NCBI RefSeq assembly: GCF_001661075.1
Contig: NZ_CP014870.1
Span: 496,001-560,000 of the forward strand
Source of the DNA: Pseudomonas silesiensis
GTDB taxonomy: Bacteria > Pseudomonadota > Gammaproteobacteria > Pseudomonadales > Pseudomonadaceae
Direction: 5' to 3'
Length of the DNA stretch: 64,000 nucleotides
Below are positions 9,128 to 25,517 of this stretch, piece by piece (the stretch's first letter is position 1; every line of letters begins with the position of its first letter). The notes beneath the pieces are model-generated. The model ran no database searches. It was given only the letters and a program-made list of their open reading frames with translations, and had not been told where the DNA came from. Position numbers and translations under genes: made by a program.

Positions 9128-9157
9128 CGGTATCCCTTGTGGGAGCGGGCTTGCTCG

Positions 9158-10438: not shown

Positions 10439-10634
10439 TCGCGAAAGCGGCGGCACATCCCACATCCATGCGTCTGAAATACCGCCTTCGCGAGCAAGCC
10501 CGCTCCCACAGGGGAAATGTGCAAGGACGTTCGGATAGGGGATATTCAGAGTGGCCTGTGAGGGTCGGCAGCGACGCTGCCAACCCTGGACACAGATCCG
10601 GTGGGCCTGATCAGATCATCCGGCCCTGAGGGTC

Positions 10635-23574: not shown

Positions 23575-24287
<713 letters not shown>

Positions 24288-24305
24288 GTTCACTGTTGTA
24301 ACACC

Positions 24306-24339
24306 AAGCCCCGGCGCGCAATCGCCGGGGCTTTTTTAC
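24306..24339 (+). terminator. Terminator of the Liv operon
   Basis: A perfect 11-bp stem (AAGCCCCGGCG 24306-24316 with CGCCGGGGCTT 24323-24333) is followed by a T-run. Confidence 0.93.
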
Positions 24340-24370
24340 GTCCTCAAACACCGCAAATTCCCTGTGGGAG

Positions 24371-24552
24371 ATATTGGTGGACTCAATGGCGACTTCGACA
24401 GCCCCTGGCAAGCCCTTCAGCCATTGCTTGATCGCCGTCTTGTTGTTGGGAATCGTCTCAAGCAGATCCAGCTCAGCTTGAAAGATCACCAACTCATTCT
24501 TGGCGACATCGACGCCAACGATTGGCATCAGGACAGAAACTGGCATTGCCAT
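24371..24552 (-). pseudogene. IS110-family recombinase, N-terminal fragment
   Basis: Starting at the ATG at 24552, about 60 residues read MAMPVSVLMPIVGVDVAKNE and continue to EVAIESTN, the first two acidic motifs of the DEDD (RuvC-like) nuclease domain of IS110 recombinases (Asp in GVDVAK, Glu in IESTN). After ESTNI the frame runs into REP sequence and terminator DNA. The remaining acidic residues and the whole catalytic-serine domain are missing, so it cannot be active. Confidence 0.85.
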
Positions 24553-24661
24553 TGAAATTCCCCCGAGATATGGTTTTGAACACTTGAAGGGCTCACCCAG
24601 GGGCGCAGGCTTGTTCCTATCGTCGGTCTTAGCCTGATGCATTCTTTATCGGCGCTTGAGT

Positions 24662-24742
24662 GAAAGGAGGAGGGGCGAAATCTCCCACGGATCTGTACTG
24701 CGTCAACAGTCAGAATCGGGCTTTGTCCCTTCTCCTCCCTTC
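24662..24742 (-). ncRNA. Fossil bridge RNA: target-binding stem-loop matching REP
   Basis: In the non-coding left end, GAAAGGAGGAGGGG (24662-24675) pairs with CCCTTCTCCTCCCTTC (24727-24742). An inner stem, CTGTACTG (24693-24700) with CAGTCAG (24707-24713), caps the structure. The internal loop between them carries CTCCCAC (24682-24688) on one side and CGGGCTT (24717-24723) on the other. The REP target reads GTGGGAG then CGGGCTT, so the first is its complement and the second is identical. This is the arrangement of left and right target guides in IS110 bridge RNAs. Transcription is expected from the minus strand. Structure and guide match are seen directly; identity as bridge RNA is inferred. 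Confidence 0.68.
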
Positions 24743-24843
24743 AAGTCCTAGCATACAAGCGGGCTTGCTCGCGAAGGCGGTGTTTCAGCCACTTTGATGC
24801 TGGATGTGCTGCCGTCTTCGCGAGCAAGCCCGCTCCCACAAGG

Positions 24844-25517
24844 ATCTCCATGTGCTTTTTGGAAATTGTGGAAAACAATATTCACAAGCTCTCAAAGCGC
24901 GACATAAAGTCGCTGCAAATAGTTGTTTTGCCACAGTTTTGACTTGTCCCCGTTTGCTGTGGAGCTGGCTGTGAATAACGTGGGAGTAGGTGGCTGCAAG
25001 CCTTTGAATCCGGGGTCTGCAGAGATATGATCGTTTTTTGATCATGGGTTTTTGCCGGGAATGAACCCGACGTTGTCAACCTTTTTAATGATAGCGAAAA
25101 CAGGTCGAAATGAGTCGGAGCAGCCTGTGGATAAGTCTGTGGTTAAACTCTGGAAAGACTCGGCTGGAGGCCGTAGTTGCTGGCTTGGCGCCATCGTTGG
25201 TTCTACCTGAATCGTGCAAATTGCCCTAGGGCTGCATGGGAGGACGGCCAGGGTCAAGCGAAAAAATTTTGAAATGGCTCTTGAAGCCTTGTGCACAGCG
25301 GCTTTCAGCTTTTCCACTTGCCCCCGGAATGTGTGGATGGGGCTGTGGATAAGGTGCGCGCACATGGCTGCAGCCCATGCGGGTCAAGGCCTGGCTACGA
25401 TTGATCGCTTTTTATACAAAAACGCGGCCACAGGTTGCCGGTGGAAGTCTGGCGGGGCATGCTGCCAGCTGATTTCTATCCCACTGGCTGCCCATCAGCC
25501 GAAGCAAGGAGAACACG
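24844..25517. other. Gene-free region with DnaA-box-like sites
   Basis: No convincing gene in about 670 bases. Two exact TGTGGATAA boxes are at 25126-25134 and 25344-25352. Near matches in the same orientation are TGTGGAAAA 24867-24875, TGTGAATAA 24970-24978, TGTGGTTAA 25138-25146 and TGTGGATGG 25332-25340. A 6-bp inverted repeat, ATGATC/GATCAT, lies at 25027-25045 around a T-run. The ribosome-binding site AAGGAG for the SDR gene is at about 25505-25510. Confidence 0.5.

Follow-up and report, generated by a model that had tools for sequence, protein, structure and literature searches.

A deletion derivative of an IS110-group element in a Pseudomonas REP and the co-variation of guides and targets among its relatives

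The remnant, its insertion site and its intact sisters

The window analysed here is a stretch of 64,000 nucleotides from the genome of Pseudomonas silesiensis, covering genome positions 496001–560000. Comparison with intact copies in the same genome identifies the minus strand of positions 24371–24759 as the initial 389 bp of an IS110 element that measures 1177 bp when complete, so that element position p corresponds to window position 24760-p. The remnant keeps 207 nt of left end ahead of the transposase ATG and the beginning of the gene (Table 1), and it is missing 788 of the 1177 bp, right end included, and therefore has neither a complete transposase gene nor both ends. Five full-length 1177-bp copies are found elsewhere in this single-contig 6.82-Mb genome. 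They are mutually identical except for one N in L006 (loci are designated by L and genomes by G), and this N is also the only difference between L006 and the remnant over the 389 bp. The preliminary description of the locus spoke of a dead element, which is true in cis, 788 bp being gone, but does not extend beyond it, since the genome has the five full-length copies. The left-end terminus CTTGTATG is altered in L078, L086 and L158, all three of which stand outside the 48-sequence alignment in which it is invariant.

The intact copy L001 has a complete transposase ORF, with the gene ending about 23 nt short of the right end, and the CT core is present at both ends of the intact element. The L001 protein (residues 2–315) matches the Pfam families DEDD_Tnp_IS110 (PF01548, 2.4e-20) and Transposase_20 (PF02371, 1.7e-18), and the PDB chain closest to this transposase is IS621 (structure 8wt6, E 2.6e-18). 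A long non-coding left end before the gene and a short right end are the layout of the IS110 group, and the element belongs to the IS110 group of the IS110 family. The assignment rests on the intact sister because a Pfam search with the remnant's own gene fragment gave zero matches. Rfam returned only chance matches far below the gathering scores for 24200–25000 (four microRNA families and one sRNA), and the remnant has no match among 72,556 plasmid records (E 1e-5).

All six genomic copies, the five intact ones and the remnant, sit at AAGCCCG/CT/CCCAC in the element-strand reading (slashes mark junctions). The interruption of a REP at GTGGGAG/CGGGCTT, as first described, is thereby confirmed and sharpened, the two halves lying at 24364–24370 and 24760–24766. 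CT is the duplicated core and part of the match of the right guide. The empty site is preserved in two relatives, G005 and G021 (L051, L052), where the sequences that flank the remnant are adjacent and overlap by the 2-nt CT core; eight orthologous regions were examined and two of the eight align well enough to show it. No orthologous site filled by a full-length element was found among the loci searched.

Exact copies of the intact 14-nt target begin at 9139, 26372 and 39167 on the plus strand, where they had been reported. The complementary copy placed near 10498 exists, with its true position two nucleotides away at 10496–10509 (minus strand), and a further exact 14-mer, which the earlier account did not have, lies inverted beside the element at 24826–24839 (minus strand). 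With at most one mismatch the window contains 7 matches against 0.03 expected, and 0 of 100 shuffles reach as many. The genome as a whole has 373 exact 14-mers, as against 0 for the reversed pattern used as a control, which agrees with the several hundred repeats originally claimed.

Table 1. Features of the remnant and its insertion site in window coordinates
Feature	Position	Strand	Basis
IS110 deletion derivative, element positions 1–389 of 1177	24371..24759	-	100% identity to the first 389 bp of L001, L002, L003 and L005
Left-end terminus CTTGTATG (CT core and right donor)	24752..24759	-	Invariant in 48 aligned sequences
Transposase gene 5' fragment, about 60 of 315 codons, open frame running into the REP	24371..24552	-	ORF list
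Target-binding loop of the predicted bridge RNA	24660..24745	-	Fold z -4.4; outer and inner stems kept across left ends
Left target guide AAGCCCG, equal to the left target	24717..24723	-	Co-variation with flanks, 45 genomes
Right target guide GTGGGAG, complementary to CTCCCAC	24682..24688	-	Complementarity in 110/118 right-end copies
Inner stem-loop between the guides, 24693–24700 paired with 24707–24713	24693..24713	-	Compensatory U-A to C-G and C-G to U-A pairs
Putative donor-binding loop	24603..24655	-	Closing GCGC/GCGC invariant in 48 sequences; placed by analogy with IS621
Putative left donor guide AAAGAAU	24641–24647	-	AAAGAAT against intact left donor ATAGAAT, 6/7
Putative right donor guide ACAAG	24610–24614	-	CAAG complementary to right donor CTTG
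Left half of the target in the interrupted REP, AAGCCCG (plus strand: CGGGCTT)	24760..24766	-	Empty REP site in L051, L052
Right half of the target in the REP, CTCCCAC (plus strand: GTGGGAG), including CT core 24369–24370	24364..24370	-	Base-level reading; empty-site comparison
Deletion junction ATAT/CT, element positions 386–389 joined to the right-end core; 390–1177 (788 bp) gone	24369..24374	-

The predicted bridge RNA and its guides

The minus strand of 24660–24745 folds with -38.6 kcal/mol, and 0 of 200 shuffles are as stable. Both stems proposed from the sequence alone, an outer one (24662–24675 with 24727–24742) and an inner one (24693–24700 with 24707–24713), are found in this fold, and a base-by-base check places the heptamers of the loop, CTCCCAC and CGGGCTT, where they had been read. 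The minimum-energy fold pairs four bases of the left guide with the right guide, and the loop is therefore not drawn open. A guide identical to the target and a guide complementary to it, on either side of a hairpin, had been recognised as the layout of an IS110 target loop, and the order of stems and guides indeed matches the published order of the IS110 group, with the left guide, which reads the bottom strand, first and the right guide, which reads the top strand, second (PMC11208158; PMC11187229). The stems are conserved across homologues: among 65 distinct left ends folded singly, the outer stem has at least six pairs in 65 and the inner stem is present in 62, being missing in L110 and L115 (both from G080) and in L138. 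These counts come from the individual folds; RNAalifold performed poorly on the MAFFT alignment, in which the outer stems of the subgroups do not line up.

Both donor ends are nearly invariant across homologues, and the matches of the putative donor guides therefore come without a co-variation signal. The base that follows the right donor guide ACAAG does vary. It is C in 118 copies, every left target of which ends in G, and G in 6 copies, all with targets ending in C; the 5 copies with U fit less well, four having a target that ends in C and one a target that ends in G, and 5 copies are unscored. This pattern is possibly the co-variation of a handshake guide with the left target and would fit the handshake guide that has been published.

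The element has a match in 61 of 298 genomes of the genus. The co-variation set consists of L001–L035 and 100 further loci, a selection from the copies known, and its 135 loci give 137 rows, which come down to 134 distinct insertions once same-site repeats are removed. These represent 45 genomes and 16 left guides; the other 16 of the 61 matching genomes are outside the count, none of their copies having been taken and most of these being weak, partial or near contig ends. With a left-guide pattern that was devised after viewing the sequences and that permits a spacer of 3 nt, as applied to G005 and G128, left guide and left flank agree at 7/7 positions in 72 insertions, at 6 or more in 121 and at 5 or more in 130 of the 134. 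Averaged by guide, the identity is 6.125 of 7 nt over the 16 guides (shuffles: mean 4.18, maximum 5.44), and averaged by genome it is 6.24 (shuffles: mean 5.05, maximum 5.71). When the target register is moved 1–8 nt upstream, the mean falls from 6.02 to at most 2.79. The comparison of the guides of intact relatives with their insertion flanks, which had been proposed as a check, thus finds REP-like sites where guides and flanks change together.

The right end is recognisable in 118 of the 134 copies; the remaining 16 are four truncated or decayed copies (the remnant, L007, L086 and L158), one with a run of N (L132) and 11 at a contig end. The right flank is CTCCCAC in 109 of the 118, CTCCTAC in 8 (seven in G094 and one in G253) and CTCTCAC in one (G139), and guide and flank are complementary in 110. 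In G094 the right guide GTAGGAG faces CTCCTAC in 7/7 copies, guide and target having changed together. The eight mismatched copies comprise all six of G080, where the guide GTGAGAG stands beside CTCCCAC with one mismatch, and one each in G139 and G253, the guide in the latter being unchanged.

Named records supply 80 loci outside the 134-count but partly overlapping with it, and 57 of these are scorable, with 7/7 agreement in 35, at least 6 in 50, and no more than 4 agreeing positions in L180, L191, L194, L212 and L213. The unscored loci are 17 without a recognised left end and six from Methyloversatilis that do not fit the pattern; L223 and L232 from Methyloversatilis are poor matches by eye. 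The fit to the guide is also poor in G066 and G213, where the guide ACAGTTCG stands beside CAAGCTCG, CAAGCCCG or CAGGCTCG, and in L010 (the same as L194, P. fluorescens ISL-62), the left end of which abuts TTTGGTAG rather than the left target. The 16 bp CTCCCACATTTGGTAG are present on both sides of the element at L010, which is either an off-target insertion or a rearrangement.

Several copies have a structure of their own. G080 has six copies of 1371 bp (L110–L115) at a shifted target, AAGCCGCC/CTCCCAC, with the left guide AAGCCGCC. Two copies in G066, L027 and L098, occupy separate REPs, with 1352 bp between their starts. L189 (P. mandelii 6A1) has a cut left end upstream of the transposase, where REP sequence ending in GTGGGAG meets the target-binding loop at its middle, and L096 (G094) measures 1257 rather than 1178 bp and has part of the transposase gene tandemly doubled. 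L133 and L134 were considered as internal deletions and rejected, their run of N being an assembly gap.

The REP types of the hosts were counted with five 14-mers in 11 genomes and one 15-mer in 5 genomes. Among the types tested, the one that corresponds to the genome's own guide is commonest in G000 (373), G183 (503), G260 (843) and G094 (124), and likewise in G111 (716, A and G both being allowed at position 2) and G070 (28 against 24). G080 has the 15-mer AAGCCGCC/CTCCCAC, its own type, 81 times and the other five patterns 0 times, and this 15-mer is found in none of four other genomes. The own-guide target is not the commonest in G039 (623, with A or G, against 628, which is about equal) and G295 (295 against 394), and the own guide's type lies outside the patterns counted in G217 and G018. 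The guides would thus follow the REP type of the host in 7 of 11 genomes, which is a tendency and not a rule.

The agreement of guides and flanks would also be seen if the target were recognised by the transposase or through the REP hairpin, and if the agreement came only from joint inheritance. IS110 elements that target REPs were known before bridge RNAs (PMC1525189), and related elements share both flanks and guides by descent. However, guides and flanks change together at several positions, through GCCCG, GCTCG, GTTCG, GCCGG, GCCAG and AAGCCGCC, and different sites in one genome share the variant of its guide, as in G094 (7/7) and G080 (6/6). In addition, 0 of 100,000 shuffles, whether by guide or by genome, match the observed means, with the reservation that these shuffles leave relatedness in. 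We consider joint inheritance as the sole cause very improbable.

The 788-bp deletion and the expression of the guide

Where the intact copies read AATAT/CTATCACTTAGAG, the remnant reads AATAT/CTCCCACAGGG. The lost segment runs from inside the transposase gene and ends exactly at the right core, and the junction has a microhomology of 4 nt, ATCT. The 100% identity of the remainder suggests a recent deletion.

Ordinary slippage or end joining at this microhomology, without any role of the recombinase, has slightly better than even odds of being the cause. It has the 4-nt ATCT at the junction in its favor, with six ATCT sites in the element. However, a random event would rarely be expected to halt exactly at the border of element and REP, and L007 and L158, two of the four shortened or decayed copies among the 134, enter unrelated flank as judged by eye. 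The recombinase itself could have made the deletion by taking an internal CT (CCACCAATAT/CT) for the true left donor, either in place or by way of a 389-bp minicircle that was then inserted into the REP, and the remnant would in that case be a bridge-RNA-bearing mini-element which an intact sister might move in trans. This is a serious candidate with somewhat less than an even chance. The right junction lies exactly at the CT core with the REP half intact. In the handshake described for IS621, the dinucleotide that follows the right target guide recognises the end of the left donor (PMC11208158); here that dinucleotide is AU and the left donor ends in AT, so that the shared ATCT is made up of the core and of what a handshake guide would recognise. 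Separately mobile short segments have moreover been suggested for ISPpu9 (PMC8450116). Against the recombinase, the internal site makes a poor donor, since 15 of the 74 CT sites, a number that counts both this site and the true donor, score at least as well against the left donor guide, and the junction of the would-be 389-bp minicircle has no promoter-like -35 (1 of 6). There is also a single such copy: the junction pattern occurs in 3 of 398 genomes, and the two other candidates for a second copy are, on reading, unrelated sequence. The microhomology accounts for the junction as well as the recombinase does, and we lean slightly to plain deletion over recombinase error because the derivative is single.

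A broader proposal would be that IS110 recombinases can generate guide-bearing mini-elements via an internal CT, with the 389-bp copy as a natural case that intact sisters can move in trans, in a lineage with guides repeatedly rewritten to the REP variant of each host species. We regard this as doubtful. No paper on a non-autonomous IS110 element with a bridge RNA was found in the open-licence PMC literature.

IS621 expresses its RNA from a promoter that is reassembled when the circle closes, the right end supplying the -35 box (PMC11208158). When the best of three hexamers 16–18 nt before TATGNT is compared with TTGACA, the mean is 3.39/6 over 41 distinct joined ends and 1.70 over 120 integrated flanks (which were not made distinct); IS621 scores 3, and the remnant and the hypothetical 389-bp circle score 1 each. 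A sigma-70 scan of 24300–24950 gives two promoter-like sites, both on the plus strand. The -35 box was likely lost along with the right end, and the guide of the remnant, being without a right end, is probably silent. The guide had been called readable, and it is legible in the sequence, but with its hexamer score of 1/6 it is probably not transcribed from the remnant. Similarly, the statement that the guide explains the targeting of a repeat family stands as far as the 373 targets are concerned, but the agents are probably not the remnant but the intact sisters, because their guides are identical to those of the remnant.

Interpretation and comparison with known systems

The best overall explanation, to which we assign a probability of about 0.93, is that an IS110-group element inserted into the REP under the direction of a bridge RNA and later underwent a deletion. 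The left target guide would have read AAGCCCG and the right target guide CTCCCAC, with strand exchange at the CT core. At a later, recent time 788 bp would have been lost, from within the transposase gene to the right end and down to the right core, which would leave the left end, with the right donor and the whole predicted bridge-RNA gene, and some 60 codons of the transposase. Since the intact copies, five in number, have the same guides, they would be the likely agents that target the 373 matching REPs. The anatomy, the insertion site, the empty site, the co-variation of guide and target and the intact sisters are read directly from the genomes; that an RNA guides the reaction we infer from the published mechanism of IS621 and ISEc21.

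The targeting of REPs by Pseudomonas IS110 elements has been in print since 2006 (PMC1525189), and bridge and seeker RNAs since 2024 (PMC11208160; PMC11187229). Natural rewriting of guides has been reported (PMC11187229), as has guide and target co-variation over 5,511 pairs (PMC11208160), and ISPpu10 is one of six whose bridge RNAs are given predicted target guides in the legend of Extended Data Fig. 10 in Durrant et al. (PMC11208160). On its sequence, the present element is well supported as a further case of the published IS110 bridge RNAs (IS621, ISPpu10), the mechanism of which has been known since 2024. What it adds is a series of natural guide variants together with one precise deletion derivative, in which the bridge-RNA layout is legible from raw sequence. 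Within one genus, a single IS lineage matches differing REP variants with 16 different left guides, one altered right guide and what may be an altered handshake guide, so that guide evolution is testable on a target with hundreds of copies, and one copy may record an error of the recombinase at a false donor.

Among known systems, IS621 of E. coli, also of the IS110 group, shares with the present element the CT core, insertion into a REP and a homologous transposase (PMC11208160, PMC11208158). In both, the left end would hold the target loop and then the donor loop, with left guides for the bottom strand and right guides for the top strand. The left end of IS621 begins with CTTGTATT, the start CTTGTAT being common to both elements, and it holds ACAGTATC, its own left donor followed by C, at 139 and GCAAG at 177. 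Unlike IS621, which is 1279 bp long as delimited in the present analysis against 1177 bp here, the element has a distantly related transposase (E 2.6e-18), a different target and different guides, and the copy at this locus is truncated. By their published descriptions, ISPpu10 and ISPpu9 from P. putida KT2440 are IS110 family members that insert into Pseudomonas REPs with a 2-bp duplication (PMC1525189, PMC8450116, PMC11208160), which for ISPpu9 is AG, i.e. CT, as in the present element. The orphan ssr9 segments of ISPpu9 have been reported as another kind of short piece (PMC8450116), unlike the remnant. The seekRNA of ISPa11, an IS1111-group element in a P. aeruginosa REP, offers another RNA-guided choice of a Pseudomonas REP, but its RNA lies downstream of the gene and its target matches come in reverse order, whereas the predicted RNA here lies upstream (PMC11187229). 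The seekRNA of ISEc21, which is of the IS110 type, is closer to the present arrangement in lying upstream of the transposase, with the bottom-strand match before the top-strand match, and differs in host and target (PMC11187229).
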